IMG/VR virus record: IMGVR_UViG_3300043438_000255
Span: 1-28,006 of that record
Origin: a virus
DNA: 28,006 bases
Strand: one strand, 5' to 3'
In this document: positions 17,514 through 25,322 of the stretch, one piece after another
Layout: each line of letters starts with the position of its first letter
Numbering within the stretch: the stretch's first letter is position 1
Translations under genes and position numbers: made by a program
The notes under the pieces: generated by a model
What the model was told of the DNA's origin: nothing
Database searches by the model: none
What the model saw: only the letters and a program-made list of their open reading frames with translations

Positions 17514-18042
17514 TTCTTATGTGATTATATATTTTTGTGATGTGGTTAATAAATTCTTTATAGTCCATATCCATTTTTGCTACATTACAAGTTTTGCAAC
17601 AAGTAACTACATTACCTTGAATATATCCTTTTGAACTATCTATTCTGTCAATACCATTATAGATAAAGTTATACTTAAAATTAGGTTGATTATAGAGCAT
17701 ATTATTGCTATGTTCTGTGCCACAATAATGGCATTTATCTTTAACTAATTTAAGTATCTCTTCTCCTGATAATGTGCAAGTTAAACCTCTTTTTATGTAT
17801 CTCTTATTTAACCTGCTTTTTAATACATTTGCACAAGTAAGTTCTAAATTTTTATTACTAAACTCGTTTGTAAAATTTTGTGTTAGTTTACACTTTTTAC
17901 ATAAAGTACCTCTCCTTCTTATTTCGTCTGCTCTTTGGGTACATTCTATGCCACATTTATCACAAGCATAAGTACCAACAGACCTTAATCTGCCTGACTT
18001 ATCTACCTTTGTGTGATAAAATATTTTACTTATTACTGGCAT
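17500..18042 (-). CDS. HNH homing-type endonuclease with N-terminal zinc finger
   Basis: A 180-residue protein. Residues 27-51 hold a CxxC...CxxC zinc finger (CDKCG, LCKKCK). The nuclease domain has C104/C107 (CHYCG), the segment NGIDRIDSSKGYIQGNVVTC (129-148) and C149/C152 (CKTC), followed by the usual MDYKEFINHI helix. This matches free-standing HNH homing enzymes of phages, which spread by cutting alleles that lack them. It overlaps the glycosyltransferase gene by ten bases and the conserved 141-residue gene by 14. The coding sequence is AT-rich compared with the tail genes. Confidence 0.88.
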   Translation of the reverse strand: MPVISKIFYHTKVDKSGRLRSVGTYACDKCGIECTQRADEIRRRGTLCKKCKLTQNFTNEFSNKNLELTCANVLKSRLNKRYIKRGLTCTLSGEEILKLVKDKCHYCGTEHSNNMLYNQPNFKYNFIYNGIDRIDSSKGYIQGNVVTCCKTCNVAKMDMDYKEFINHITKIYNHIRNANI

Positions 18043-19028
18043 AGTTTACTATAAATATACTTTCGGTCTAAATTTATCTCGTCAAAGTTATACTTCTTTT
18101 GGCAGAACTCAAAAAGCTTTTGTCCGCTTTCCTTACGCATATCCGCATCGCTTACTAAATCTCTTATATGTTTATACCAATCCTTCTGGCTTTTAACGTA
18201 ATGCACGGGCATATCTAAGTAAGGATTGACGTGGCTAACTATGGCAGGGTTCTTTTTAGAAGCCGTTTCTAATACCTTTAAATTTGACTTCATAGCGTTG
18301 AACTTATTATCTACTAAAGGAATAATTGAAATGTCGCTATCCGTATAAGCACCCATATATTCCGTAACCTTTGCATAGTTGTATATAGTAGGGTTAAGCT
18401 TTAATCCGCAAGTAAAAGCATCTATCATTTTATCCCATATAGGCTTCTCCCCGTCATTGTAACCTGCAATAACAGTTCTTATATTCATACCTTGTAGGCG
18501 TTTAAACGGCTGCCTTAGTATTTCTAAATCTCGCTCGTGCGTTCCGCTACCGCTCCAAAATAATCTAACCTTGTAATCTTCGGTCTTGTTATCCTGGAAC
18601 TGCTCTTTGCCGTAAGGTAATGCGTTTGGTAATATGTGTACGTTCTTATTGTATTTACTTATTTCGTCTGCTAACCTTTCGTGTGTGCAAGTGCAAAGGT
18701 CTGCAACTTCTAAATAATCAGTAATTAGTTTACCTATGTTATTGTACTTATATCTTAAATACAACAAATGGCTTTCGCTAAGTTCCCAGTAATCGTCATT
18801 ATCGACTACTAATTTAAAGCCGTACTTAGTGCGCCAAATGTCCATTTGCTTTGCATCTATCTCGTTAAGCATTCTATTCATAAGCACAATATCCCAACCT
18901 TGCTCTAATAGTTCGTCATTAAGTACATCGGTAATAAGTGCGTACTCTTTTTCCATATTAACTATTGGCATCATAATTCTATGATAGCCGACACCCGAGT
19001 TGGCAGAAGTTATACAAAGTATTTTCAT
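18033..19028 (-). CDS. Glycosyltransferase, GT-B fold (GT4-like)
   Basis: A 331-residue cytoplasmic sugar transferase. The N-terminal domain begins MKILCITSANSGVGYHRIMM, the glycine-rich acceptor loop of GT-B enzymes. After a linker (NVHILPNALPYG, about 129-140) the donor domain starts with VRLFWSGSGTHERDLEILRQ and ends with EYMGAYTDSDISIIPLVDNK and SNLKVLETASKKNPAIVSHV, where the acidic donor-sugar contact normally lies. It overlaps the next-upstream GT2-like gene by four bases. Glycosyltransferases of phages decorate DNA, virions or the host surface; which applies here is not shown. A direct acceptor cannot be predicted from sequence. Confidence 0.85.
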   Translation of the reverse strand: MKILCITSANSGVGYHRIMMPIVNMEKEYALITDVLNDELLEQGWDIVLMNRMLNEIDAKQMDIWRTKYGFKLVVDNDDYWELSESHLLYLRYKYNNIGKLITDYLEVADLCTCTHERLADEISKYNKNVHILPNALPYGKEQFQDNKTEDYKVRLFWSGSGTHERDLEILRQPFKRLQGMNIRTVIAGYNDGEKPIWDKMIDAFTCGLKLNPTIYNYAKVTEYMGAYTDSDISIIPLVDNKFNAMKSNLKVLETASKKNPAIVSHVNPYLDMPVHYVKSQKDWYKHIRDLVSDADMRKESGQKLFEFCQKKYNFDEINLDRKYIYSKLCQ

Positions 19029-19612
19029 AAGTTTATATAATAAGTTTTATTTCCATTTGTATAACCAGATACATTATTACTATGCAAACACCAGGTCTTT
19101 TGTACTAATTCATTTTTATTGTAACCATAAGCATCAATGCTATTTTGCTCAATATGATTAGCAGTATATTCTTTAATGAATTTCGTATGCAAACCTGCTG
19201 CCCTACATCTTGTACAATAATCTAAATCTATTGCTCCATAAGGGTCAAGTTCTTGATTAAATGCACCAACTCTTTTTATAGTTTCTTTTGTGATAGTAAA
19301 GTTGCCAATTAAATCAGCCGTGTCATTACATGTACTATGTAAAGGAATAGAACAAATACCAATAGTTTTATCTTGTAAAAAGTCATTTCTTATTTGCAAC
19401 CAATTATCAGGTTCTAATATATCGTTACCCATAATAGTTACATAATCTATATTATCAAAGTTTAAATTCCTTAAGCCTTTATTAGTTGCAAATGCTATAC
19501 CTTCTTCATTAATGATAGTAACTATATCAATATGCTTACCTGCATTTTTGATATTCTCAAACAATGTATTGATGTTCCTATCTTTATAGTTTAAGTATAC
19601 TATTGCATTCAT
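19025..19612 (-). CDS. Glycosyltransferase, GT-A fold (GT2-like)
   Basis: A 195-residue protein with a compact GT2 build: a Rossmann-like start (MNAIVYLNYKDRNINTLFEN), the loop GIAFATNKGLRNL, and GND (62-64, in TIMGNDILEPDNW) where DXD or its like usually sits. The later YGAIDLDYCTRCRAAGLHTK (125-144) carries the acidic catalytic-base region common to the family (D129, D131). No membrane segment is present, so it acts in the cytoplasm on a soluble or DNA/protein acceptor, or peripherally. It shares one base with the beta-helix gene and four bases with the GT-B gene. The substrate is unknown. Confidence 0.8.
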   Translation of the reverse strand: MNAIVYLNYKDRNINTLFENIKNAGKHIDIVTIINEEGIAFATNKGLRNLNFDNIDYVTIMGNDILEPDNWLQIRNDFLQDKTIGICSIPLHSTCNDTADLIGNFTITKETIKRVGAFNQELDPYGAIDLDYCTRCRAAGLHTKFIKEYTANHIEQNSIDAYGYNKNELVQKTWCLHSNNVSGYTNGNKTYYINL

Positions 19613-20091
19613 TATCTTATGTTTGAGCCGATTTCTCGTGCAGGTACTCCTGCGTATTTAGTATTGGGTTTTGCATCTCCTTTTACAAAAGCACTTGCAC
19701 CAATCATACAATTTTCTCCTACGTTTGCAAACTGATGTAGAACTGCGTTAAGTCCTATATTAGCACCATTGTCTACAATAGAATGCCCACCTATTTTTGC
19801 TCCGCAGCTTATTGTAACATTGTCTAAAATTGTGCAGTCGTGTCCAATGTGTGCGTGTTTCATTATGAAACAATTATTACCAATGAAGGTGTCAATCTCC
19901 GTACCTGCGTCTATTGTTACAAGTCCTGTAATAACATTGTTATCGCCTATGTATACTTTGCCTTTTTCTTTTTGCCAAAACTTTTTATGCTCGGCTTTGT
20001 CGCCTATAATACAATAAGCACCAATGTAGTTGCCATCTCCGATAATTACGTTATCGCCAATGATAGCGGTAGGGTGGATAAAGTTAGCCAT
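19612..20091 (-). CDS. Left-handed beta-helix acyltransferase, LpxA-like
   Basis: A 159-residue protein with about ten hexapeptide turns (for example IIGDNVIIGDGNYIGAYCII and IGDNNVITGLVTIDAGTEID). The segment KHAHIGHDCTILDN (78-91) matches the LpxA catalytic site, with H84 aligned to the general-base histidine of HIAHD. The end KYAGVPAREIG is typical of sugar acyl- or acetyltransferases. It lacks the C-terminal helical domain of full LpxA (about 260 residues), so a sugar O- or N-acyltransferase is more likely than a lipid A enzyme. It leads the two glycosyltransferase genes, overlapping by one base, which indicates a joint sugar-modification role. Confidence 0.85.
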   Translation of the reverse strand: MANFIHPTAIIGDNVIIGDGNYIGAYCIIGDKAEHKKFWQKEKGKVYIGDNNVITGLVTIDAGTEIDTFIGNNCFIMKHAHIGHDCTILDNVTISCGAKIGGHSIVDNGANIGLNAVLHQFANVGENCMIGASAFVKGDAKPNTKYAGVPAREIGSNIR

Positions 20092-21563: not shown

Positions 21564-22322
21564 TTAAGAAAATGAAACTTTACCAAATTTTATTTGTTCC
21601 TCAAAAAATAATGCTACTGCAACTGCTCTTGCTTGGTTCTTAAGCCAACTATCAGTCCATTCGTCTCGGTATTGCTTTGCGCTTATGATGTCCATTTTAT
21701 TAGCTTTGTATGTAATAATCTCCATAAGTTTCTTTTTAGCAAGTGCGCCATCTTCTTTTGTCCATACCTTGATGCCAGTACTATTAAGCTTTGTAAATAC
21801 GCTTAATGGGTTAAACAATCTATCAAAAGTTCTATTTTCCAGAACCTTATATTCTTGGTAACTGTAATTAATTATCTCTAAATCGGTTAAGTGCGGGATT
21901 GCTTCTACTCGTTCCTGTGGCATCATTTTTCTAACTTCGTTTGCTTTTTTCTTGTACCTATCCATTACCTGACTAAAGTATGCAGGACTAAAGTTCTGGT
22001 AGTGGTCTATAAAGTCATTGGCTACCATTTGCTTAAACGCTACTTTAACTTCGTTTATTGTAAAGCCACCATACTCAGTTCTTATCCAATCCTCTAAAAT
22101 TGCTAACTTAACTTCTCCAGGATTGTTAATGCCAACAAGCTGCATAAGGTAAACAAGGTTTTGTTTAAATATGGTAGAGTTCAGATTGCGAACCCTCTCG
22201 CCCGAAAATGCGGTCATAATCTCTTGCTCCGTAGGAAGTAGAGTGGATAAAGTTGTAGTTTTTAAGGTTTTCAAGTTCGTGTTTATCAAGCTTTCGTTGA
22301 TTATCTGAAGTTCTTTTTGCAT
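21564..22322 (-). CDS. Replication-linked protein of unknown function
   Basis: A 252-residue helical protein (central stretch IRTEYGGFTINEVKVAFKQM, then DHYQNFSPAYFSQVMDRYKK, then KKLMEIITYKANKMDIISAK). From memory, similar proteins follow DUF4373 proteins in Bacteroidota phages; they lack Walker motifs, so they are not helicases. A loader- or primosome-like role is a guess. The ATG at 22322 makes a 158-base overlap with the preceding gene; a second ATG at 22217 would cut this to 53. Both frames look coding in the overlap, and LSTLLPTEQEIMTAFSGERV supports the longer form. Confidence 0.7.
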   Translation of the reverse strand: MQKELQIINESLINTNLKTLKTTTLSTLLPTEQEIMTAFSGERVRNLNSTIFKQNLVYLMQLVGINNPGEVKLAILEDWIRTEYGGFTINEVKVAFKQMVANDFIDHYQNFSPAYFSQVMDRYKKKANEVRKMMPQERVEAIPHLTDLEIINYSYQEYKVLENRTFDRLFNPLSVFTKLNSTGIKVWTKEDGALAKKKLMEIITYKANKMDIISAKQYRDEWTDSWLKNQARAVAVALFFEEQIKFGKVSFS

Positions 22323-22974
22323 CTTCTTTTAGGTTAAATAGACCTTTCCAACCATTTGCCATTGACTGATTGATAATTTTTATAGCAATGTCTTCTTGTC
22401 CGTTTGATAATTTTATTAATTCTTGTAAGGTAGCAAGTTCGCTTTGTGTTGTTCTATATGTAAACTTAAATTGTTTTTTCTTGTAATCCTTCCAATCAAA
22501 CCACATTTTTTCAAATTCCTTAGAAACAAAAGGAAGCTCTATTATTTCTTTTATTTCCTTTATTTCTTTTCCTTTCCTTTCCTTTATAGCATTGCGGTCG
22601 CTATGCGGTAGCAATGCGGTCGCATCATTTACATTAGAAACCCAACGTTTACGGGCGTTTTGACTTGCCTTCTTGCTCTTGCTATCCCTTTCGTCTATGC
22701 GTTTTTGTACAGACATACTACCAAAGTTTTCGCCTTCAAATACAAATAAACCAAAGTCGTGTAATACGCTATGCACAACTTCGCTATGCACTCGCAGGTC
22801 ATAAGCTATGCCATCGCAATCCGTTCGCAATGCGTTTGCATTATTGTATAGGTCTTCAATGATTGCCCAGAATACCCCATAACCGAGCATTCCGTGTTTC
22901 CTAATAAGGAATTTAATCTTCTCGTCATTACGGCTATTATAGTCGTGTGAGAAGTAAAAGGTATCTTTTGCCAT
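22165..22974 (-). CDS. DUF4373-type replication initiation protein
   Basis: A 269-residue protein from the ATG at 22972-22974; a TTG at 23010 would lie inside a terminator hairpin and is rejected. Residues 1-55 (AKDTFYFSHDYNSRNDEKIK, then RKHGMLGYGVFWAIIEDLYN) match the DUF4373 (Lin1244/Lin1753-like) N-terminal domain, a winged-helix fold found on phage and plasmid replication proteins. A low-complexity, basic middle (KERKGKEIKEIKEIIE) links to a C-terminal helical domain (FEKMWFDWKDYKKKQFKFTY). The middle is encoded by tandem 11-bp repeats and a pyrimidine-rich strand, as if the origin lies inside the gene. It follows the DnaA-like gene after a structured leader. Confidence 0.82.
   Translation of the reverse strand: MAKDTFYFSHDYNSRNDEKIKFLIRKHGMLGYGVFWAIIEDLYNNANALRTDCDGIAYDLRVHSEVVHSVLHDFGLFVFEGENFGSMSVQKRIDERDSKSKKASQNARKRWVSNVNDATALLPHSDRNAIKERKGKEIKEIKEIIELPFVSKEFEKMWFDWKDYKKKQFKFTYRTTQSELATLQELIKLSNGQEDIAIKIINQSMANGWKGLFNLKEDAKRTSDNQRKLDKHELENLKNYNFIHSTSYGARDYDRIFGREGSQSELYHI
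22541..22586. other. Pyrimidine-rich AT tract beside the iterons (possible unwinding element)
   Basis: The plus strand is almost all C and T with TTTCC and CTTT repeats and only a few A. It directly adjoins the tandem iterons at 22589-22621. AT-rich, asymmetric tracts next to iterons often melt first in phage and plasmid origins. Codons are largely lysine, glutamate and isoleucine. Confidence 0.5.
22589..22621. repeat. Three tandem 11-bp iterons inside the DUF4373 gene
   Basis: GCATTGCGGTC (22589), GCTATGCGGTA (22600) and GCAATGCGGTC (22611) are exactly contiguous, consensus GCWWTGCGGTM. A fourth degenerate unit (GCATC) follows. The 11-bp period puts each site on the same helix face. Confidence 0.75.
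22767..22842. repeat. Second cluster of GCWATGC-type repeats
   Basis: CGCTATGCAC occurs at 22767 and 22782. GCTATGC lies at 22805. TCGCAATCCGT (22814) and TCGCAATGCGT (22825) are contiguous with an 11-bp period, followed by TTGCATT. The core GCWATGC is shared with the iterons at 22589-22621. Confidence 0.6.
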
Positions 22975-23066
22975 AAAAAAAGAAAAGACCCAAGAAGGAG
23001 CGAACTTCAAGGGTCTTTATTATTTAACCACTAAACACATTATGGGTTCGCTCTTCCTTAATGTGT
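22975..23066 (-). promoter_or_regulatory. Two-hairpin leader with complementary loops and a terminator at the start codon
   Basis: On the minus-strand RNA an upstream hairpin (ACACATTA at 23066-23059, TAATGTGT at 23042-23035) shows GAGCGAAC in its loop. A second hairpin (AAAGACCC at 23018-23011, GGGTCTTT at 22991-22984) shows GTTCGCTC in its loop, a perfect eight-base complement. The second hairpin runs into TCTTTTTT and then the ATG of the DUF4373 gene, so it has the form of an intrinsic terminator used as an attenuator. Loop-loop pairing could change the outcome. Confidence 0.7.
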
Positions 23067-23091
23067 CTTATATTTATGTTGCGAATATATA

Positions 23092-23520
23092 CTAAATTTC
23101 TTTAAGTTCTAATTTTAAGCAAAGTTTTTTTAGCTTAGTTTTAAACCAGTCCTCAGTTTCTATTAAGTTATTCGCTTGTTTTATGTTATGGATAGCAGTA
23201 GTATGGTCGCTTGTTCCTGTGTACTGGCTTATCTCCTTAAGGCTTAATTTAGTATAACGCCTTAGTAAGTATGCCGCAGCTTTGCGCCCAAATGTTGTTT
23301 TTAAACTCCTATCCTTAATTAATACATCGCACTCAAACTCTTCGTCTACCAATTTGACAATAGTTCTCGCACCAATGTCTAACCCTAAAGGCTCGTTATC
23401 TTCTATGCCTAACAATCCAAGTTGCTGCATCATTTCGTGAAGTTGCAAGTGGGTGTTGCGTTGTGCGAAGTATAACTCCTTTAATTGTCTTATTGATATA
23501 TCCTTTTTCTTATTCAGCAT
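23092..23520 (-). CDS. DnaA domain IV-like DNA-binding protein
   Basis: A 142-residue protein. Residues about 50-125 match the C-terminal DNA-binding domain of DnaA: AAAYLLRRYTKLSLKEISQY (81-100) and the DnaA signature region TGTSDHTTAIHNIKQANNLI (101-120), where the DHTT residues contact DnaA boxes. The AAA+ ATPase part is absent, so it can bind but not melt DNA alone. The first 45 residues are helical and contain LHEMMQQLGLLGIEDNEPLG. It lies directly before the DUF4373 gene and its structured leader. It is probably an origin-binding protein that competes with or recruits host DnaA. A near-consensus DnaA box lies at 22242-22250. Confidence 0.88.
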   Translation of the reverse strand: MLNKKKDISIRQLKELYFAQRNTHLQLHEMMQQLGLLGIEDNEPLGLDIGARTIVKLVDEEFECDVLIKDRSLKTTFGRKAAAYLLRRYTKLSLKEISQYTGTSDHTTAIHNIKQANNLIETEDWFKTKLKKLCLKLELKEI

Positions 23521-25244: not shown

Positions 25245-25261
25245 TTTGTGTTTTGTTTACA

Positions 25262-25295
25262 CAAATATACAACAATACACAATACAAAGTGCAAA
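25262..25295 (-). promoter_or_regulatory. Bacteroidota-type promoter for the early operon
   Basis: On the minus strand TTTG (25295-25292), a 22-base gap and TATATTTG (25269-25262). The same -7 octamer is used at the late promoter. The ATG of the first gene is 17 bases downstream of the -7 box, and TTGTGT/ACACAA (25246-25264) forms a small inverted repeat over the start region. Confidence 0.72.
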
Positions 25296-25322
25296 ACTAT
25301 TAAAATATTTTAAAATTATTTT

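Follow-up and report, generated by a model that had tools for sequence, protein, structure and literature searches.

A conserved two-hairpin leader with mutually complementary loops, probably a transcription attenuator, precedes the replication gene of a phage of Bacteroidota-type bacteria

In the usual picture of a terminator, the hairpin is plain and its loop has no task. Loop-loop contacts are known from plasmid copy control, where the RNAI and RNAII molecules of ColE1, two separate RNAs, present fully complementary loops of ca. 7 nt in replication-primer control. In IncI/IncB/IncL-M plasmids, the repZ/repA leader pseudoknot is a long-range loop pairing in a replication-initiator mRNA leader (work cited in PMC10724649). 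It activates translation and is blocked by antisense RNA, and no terminator loop is known to take part. In case of pT181/pIP501-type attenuators, a terminator lies in the leader of the replication initiator and loop-loop contacts take part (PMC4878617); the leader kisses an antisense RNA, which controls an antiterminator in competition with the terminator stem. In phages, the closest case is the HK022 putRNA, a leader RNA with two stem-loops near the promoter that suppresses termination via the zinc-binding domain of the RNA polymerase beta' subunit and for which neither a T-tract nor kissing loops are described (PMC9378689).

We analysed a leader element within a 28-kb stretch of a virus record (28,006 nt, here called the window). 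Nearly all likely genes of the window lie on the minus strand, and the phage is one of Bacteroidota-type bacteria. Inside the phage gene run, ORF translations at 18033-20091 (minus strand) suggest a hexapeptide-repeat acyltransferase and glycosyltransferases. The element is flanked upstream by the gene of a DnaA domain-IV-like DNA-binding protein (DnaA-IV; 23092..23520, minus strand, 142 aa; Pfam PF08299, E=2.1e-11) and downstream by that of a Lin1244_N (DUF4373) phage replication protein (22165..22974, minus strand, 269 aa; Pfam PF14297, E=1.2e-9), whose homologues carry the annotation "replication initiation protein". Two 42-nt CGC/ATGC-rich repeat blocks that are 74% identical (22588-22629 and 22804-22845) lie within the DUF4373 coding sequence; their units are spaced at ca. 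11 bp and look iteron-like, so that this gene may contain the origin of replication, an arrangement known from lambda O.

Just past the DnaA-IV gene, the minus strand carries a Bacteroidota-type -7 box, TATATTCG (23089-23082), which reads TATATTCG or TATATTTG in the listed relatives and gives a predicted RNA start at ca. 23077 on the same strand. In Flavobacterium johnsoniae and F. psychrophilum, the -7 element is located at -12 to -5 (PMC6847099, PMC9723704). The -33 element of the promoter is poor in the window, and sigma-70-type promoters showed no excess there over shuffled sequences. Further upstream, two tandem Bacteroidota-like -7 boxes precede the early genes (25261-25299, minus strand), one of them with TTG near -33. 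This is likely the main early promoter region, and read-through from there would reach the leader element.

Along the RNA, the minus strand presents the -7 box, hairpin H1 (the right-hand one in the window), a linker, hairpin H2, a T-tract and the ATG, so that gene, box and T-tract share one strand. H1 (23033..23068, minus strand) folds into a 10-bp stem, AGACACATTA/TAATGTGTTT, with an inner GG/CC and the loop AAGAGCGAAC (as DNA, AGACACATTA-a-GG-aaGAGCGAAC-CC-a-TAATGTGTTT). The linker AGTGGTTAAATAAT (23019..23032, minus strand) is unpaired in both hairpins. H2 (22984..23018, minus strand) resembles an intrinsic terminator and folds as AAAGACCC-UU-GAAG / CUUC-UU-GGGUCUUU around the 7-nt loop UUCGCUC (as DNA, AAAGACCC-TT-GAAG-TTCGCTC-CTTC-TT-GGGTCTTT); it is followed by the T-tract TCTTTTTTT (22975..22983, minus strand), which abuts the ATG at 22974. 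Both hairpins are present in the minimum free energy fold of either strand, with energy z-scores of -4.8 for the 92 nt on the plus strand as given and of -2.55 for a longer minus-strand stretch.

The loops contain the kissing partners GAGCGAAC (H1, 23053-23046, minus strand) and GTTCGCTC (H2, 23005-22998, minus strand), which match each other as perfect complements and have no further copy in the window. Since the first G of GTTCGCTC doubles as the closing base of the H2 apical stem, seven loop bases are available for pairing while the stem stays closed. A preliminary description had proposed such eight-base complementary loops in two hairpins upstream of the DUF4373 gene and had considered chance an unlikely cause. 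Sequence and folds bear out the arrangement, and dinucleotide-preserving shuffles of the 92 nt gave a loop-loop complement of 8 in only 3 of 10,000 cases and of at least 7 in 18 of 10,000. Its assignment of H2 and the T-tract as a terminator fits sequence, T-tract and strand: a GC-containing hairpin is directly followed by a U-rich tract on the strand predicted to be transcribed, and relatives keep hairpin, T-rich tract and adjoining ATG. A simple terminator scan missed H2, probably due to its internal U-U mismatches. The downstream gene named there as a replication gene encodes the Lin1244_N protein, for which other replication-type genes substitute in relatives.

Relatives were gathered from many contigs by scans with both flanking proteins and with the linker. 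The element was present directly 3' of the DnaA-IV gene in 78/78 distinct sequences, all of which also carried TTTAGTGGTTAA in the linker. An alignment of 44 distinct rows (A1) of this family, called family A, provided the compensatory changes by which the proposed structure could be judged, and these were abundant for both the hairpins and the loop-loop pairing. The 7-bp loop-loop helix was paired in 99.4% of cells, with two-sided changes in five of its seven pairs and the remaining two invariant. Its 8-bp version reached a covariation score of 0.676 compared with 0.171 for shuffles (0/500), and pairing fell to 23-32% once the partner was shifted by one to three columns. H1 was paired in 99.2% of cells with two-sided change in three pairs, and the apical stem of H2 covaried as well; the 86% pairing of the H2 base is an underestimate because this part aligns poorly between classes. 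Loop types comprise GAGCGAAC, CTGCGAAC, CTACGAAC, GTACGAAC, AGTCGAGC and AGTCCAGC together with minor variants; in all but two cases the opposite loop holds the matching complement, and the 7-bp complement is kept in 111/113 distinct copies. L131 and L008 combine loops of different types with one core pair broken in each; they may be natural hybrids or mutants, or chimeric assemblies. As expected of a kissing-loop RNA, the hairpin loops are mutually complementary and their pairing is held by compensatory change; both the RNA and its loop-loop contact are well supported.

The linker and the 3' arm of H1 (window 23019-23040, minus strand) also encode, in the majority of the family, MCLVVK and then stop codons. 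A leader-peptide attenuator was considered on this basis and rejected: the reading frame is reduced to MF in L026, has lost its stop in L012, L091 and L100 and shows no synonymous variation. Being broken in these relatives, it is probably incidental.

An alignment search with DUF4373 proteins uncovered leaders that cannot be aligned with that of the window and nevertheless share its plan, consisting of a 5' hairpin, a gap of ca. 40 nt, a terminator with a nearly wholly complementary loop and the start codon. Family B (alignment A3, 12 rows) is unrelated in sequence to the window's family and lacks its linker type. Its H1 loops read GTAGGAT, GTCGGAT, GTCGCAT, GTCAGAT, GTAAGAG or ATAGCAG, and each has its exact complement in the respective terminator loop. 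All 249 of 249 cells of 21 pairs were paired, with two-sided changes in 15 of the 21; for the loop-loop helix, this applied to 84/84 cells over seven pairs, five of which changed on both sides. Further families are represented by L044 and L334/L357 (8 and 9 bp), L356, L318 and L039, and the leaders of L045 and L047 covary once more (GTGCAT vs GCGCAT). Two isolates carry the same architecture. Polaribacter phage P12002L (L366, 34375-34480, minus strand) has the element before its replication protein with the loops GGTCGTAG/CTACGACC, and Flavobacterium phage 11b (L362, 33640-33737) has it before PHG11b_62/63 with the loops CGGGCAGG/CCTGCCCG. That unrelated phages share the design with different matching loop letters indicates that the fit itself has been preserved by evolution. 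A leader of this kind is missing before many other DUF4373 genes.

Hairpins with a T-rich tract adjoining an ATG were collected by an automatic scan. Among the 25 candidates from outside the window's family whose hairpin reached at least -13 kcal/mol in strength, 19 had an upstream complement of at least 6 nt to the loop, compared with 3 when the loop was reversed and 1 when it was only complemented; the 19 positives are partly members of family B. The gap between the two complementary segments measured 38-46 nt in 18 of 23 hand-listed leaders. Leaders L030, L050, L058 and L062 have wider gaps and are less certain. In 16 leaders that were folded, the apical loop of the terminator comprised 6-9 nt and was nearly wholly complementary. 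The complementarity enters the terminator stem by a base or two at most (loop plus one base in the window), and the second loop lies between 11 nt (window) and ca. 22 nt upstream of the T-run.

Departures from Watson-Crick pairing indicate that the folded RNA is read in the direction of the gene. Family A, with the basal part of H2 left out, showed 111 G-U cells, 1 A-C cell and 13 others, and family B 12 G-U cells and nothing else, which amounts to 123 G-U cells vs 1 A-C cell on that strand for both families. These data bear on a DNA-level feature, i.e. an operator or origin with inverted repeats, which has in its favour the neighbouring gene for a DnaA-IV DNA-binding protein and a linker complement, TTAACCACT, that we take to resemble a DnaA box at 7/9 positions. 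Compensatory changes in both stems and between the loops, the bias toward G-U over A-C on one strand, and the order of promoter and T-tract are all hallmarks of RNA; together with a family B that does not share the linker, they make this reading highly improbable.

The genes behind these leaders vary. Nuclease genes often sit between a kissing-terminator leader and the replication gene, and in L003, L073, L032 and L186 genes of the HNH-like, GIY-YIG or HNH_3/NUMOD1 type follow the leader directly. In L032 this is an HNH-like gene; in L186 it is an HNH_3/NUMOD1 homing endonuclease gene (L186:9140-9661), and the same contig also has a window-type element. The leaders of L390 and L402 precede HTH_36 replication-type genes. 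The proteins of L101, L102, L111 and the window (22165-22974) have a common C-terminal end, N.RKLNKHEL..LRNYN.IHSTSYG..DY, and differ in their N-terminal parts (Lin1244_N, DUF1376-like and others), which amounts to swapping of the N-terminal domain among replication-type proteins that follow the same leader. Such variability could indicate a stand-alone phage sRNA of ca. 95 nt that is ended by H2, has its fold locked by kissing and acts on other host or phage targets, with the downstream gene only sharing its promoter through leaky read-through. In the window's family, the DnaA-IV gene is indeed the constant neighbour of the element, and the first gene on the other side changes between Lin1244_N, DUF1376-like, HNH-like and GIY-YIG types. 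We nevertheless consider an sRNA rather unlikely, as what unrelated families have in common is a T-tract near the ATG and a location immediately ahead of a replication or homing-nuclease gene, and neither 8-mer has a second copy in the window as an obvious target.

Loop types were mapped onto a tree of the neighbouring gene (116 rows; 440 bp lying upstream of the element). They require a minimum of 63 changes, compared with a mean of 72.8 for shuffled labels, and loop type is associated with the downstream gene without being fixed to it. Frequent recombination can explain the scatter, and by analogy with plasmid incompatibility, selection for different loop types is a possibility. The latter would fit copy or incompatibility control in trans, where a terminated leader would pair loop to loop with leaders still being transcribed from other copies or from co-infecting phages, thereby silencing their replication gene, the loop types acting as specificity groups. 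The occurrence of eight loop variants although the element is well conserved elsewhere, a near-random spread on the tree (63 vs 72.8) with a matched pair in nearly every genome, and the precedent of plasmid copy control, which gets such specificity from kissing loops, all speak for it. However, both complementary loops are in cis, so self-pairing would come first, no antisense transcript is predicted, and recombination of the flanks alone can account for the scatter, which leaves trans control quite unlikely. It is likewise doubtful that kissing terminators form a general control device of Bacteroidota phages, with many separate origins ahead of replication and homing-nuclease genes, and that their loop types are RNA specificity groups through which genome copies or co-infecting phages sense each other and limit replication.

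We regard the element as a 5' leader RNA of ca. 103 nt in the phage replication operon that most likely, if by no means assuredly, acts as a transcription attenuator. Covariation in the RNA structure, selection on the loop-loop pairing, the strand, the order of promoter, terminator and ATG, and the recurrence are observed, whereas termination at H2, its regulation and the direction in which kissing acts are inferred. The leader RNA would start at the -7 box that follows the DnaA-IV gene, fold H1 and meet the H2 terminator against the start codon. With the box at the sigma-A position, the RNA should begin near 23077 and H1 would be ready before H2 is made; the 7-nt terminator loop could then pair with the H1 loop to form a kissing complex in cis. 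Given the usual footprint of RNA polymerase, the second loop emerges as the enzyme enters the U-tract, which would be the moment of the termination decision. The two stems and the kissing helix can exist side by side and are conserved jointly, and complementarity ceases where the terminator stem begins. We therefore see the contact as belonging more probably to the terminated structure, as a terminator stabilised or timed by kissing, than to a classical mutually exclusive antiterminator, and favour kissing-dependent formation or stability of the terminator. The opposite sign, with kissing first and the terminator hairpin thereby delayed, is possible.

The replication gene would thus be expressed via controlled read-through, and the attenuator would set the amount of replication-protein mRNA arising from its own promoter and from upstream early-gene read-through. 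In these bacteria, translation is reduced when RNA structure lies close to the start codon (PMC6847099), so that read-through mRNA, which would also have a structured start region, may be translated less, and the levels of transcription and translation may both be affected. The linker, which is nearly invariant in the window's family (alignment A1) and a possible contact for a protein or RNA polymerase, is together with the neighbouring DnaA-IV protein a candidate for setting read-through. Several points count against an attenuator: the poor -33 element, the wider gaps of some leaders and the DUF4373 genes that have no such leader, as well as the U-tract, which could double as the unstructured stretch preferred at Bacteroidota start sites, and the near-invariance of the linker, which goes beyond what a pure two-hairpin attenuator explains.

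To our knowledge, little is known about gene timing in Bacteroidota phages. The leaders described here would represent a whole class of phage terminators whose loop is paired with a second hairpin of the same RNA, found in many unrelated leaders before replication genes, and would mean that DNA replication of Bacteroidota phages is also under the control of RNA acting in cis. Kissing terminators would also give compact, reprogrammable parts for Bacteroidota hosts, and the cultured phages P12002L and 11b, which carry the element, could serve as laboratory models.

The window and ten related loci gave no Rfam match above gathering or at relaxed thresholds. Isolated phages searched by DNA and by DnaA-IV protein gave no match; DUF4373 matches in isolates were distant, with only short spaces before the gene in the annotated regions of Porphyromonas and Flavobacterium 1/32. 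In a search of genome contigs, a 20-mer match in Bartonella lacked the structure and was taken as chance. An integron attC site, an idea prompted by the P12002L paper, was also rejected, since according to that paper the attC sites of P12002L belong to an array of methyltransferase cassettes, and the element does not conserve the AAC/GTT boxes. In the open papers searched, the design was not described.

Among known systems, HK022 put raises the question of whether the RNA of H1 and H2 might ride on RNA polymerase past later terminators as an antiterminator. Like putL, the element has two stem-loops downstream of an early promoter, within ca. 100 nt of it and with a total of ca. 70-100 nt (PMC9378689). 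We consider this very unlikely: put has no terminator within the element, whereas H2 is terminator-like, has its own T-tract and abuts the ATG, stem sequences vary freely here while put acts by sequence-specific contacts, and the text of the HK022 paper contains neither 'pseudoknot' nor 'kissing' (PMC9378689). Leader RNA, two promoter-proximal stem-loops and an effect on termination are what the attenuator would have in common with put. The likeness to plasmid copy control drawn in the preliminary description holds as an analogy, but no antisense RNA promoter was found near the element (no TANNTT[TC]G box on the plus strand between 22047 and 24344, considering consensus boxes only), and the leader is therefore not of the pT181 type. 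It shares with pT181/pIP501-type attenuators the terminator in a replication-initiator leader and the loop-loop contacts and differs in that the partner lies in the same RNA and the complementarity ends at the terminator stem; pairing with the 5' arm of that stem, as an antiterminator would need, was not seen, the complement covering the loop and one base. With the IncI/IncB/IncL-M leaders it shares long-range loop pairing, and with ColE1 complementary loops of ca. 7 nt, here within one RNA and with one loop in a terminator. The phage leader is best placed among leader attenuators with RNA loop contacts, as a variant that is broad in distribution and differs from each of the systems compared here.
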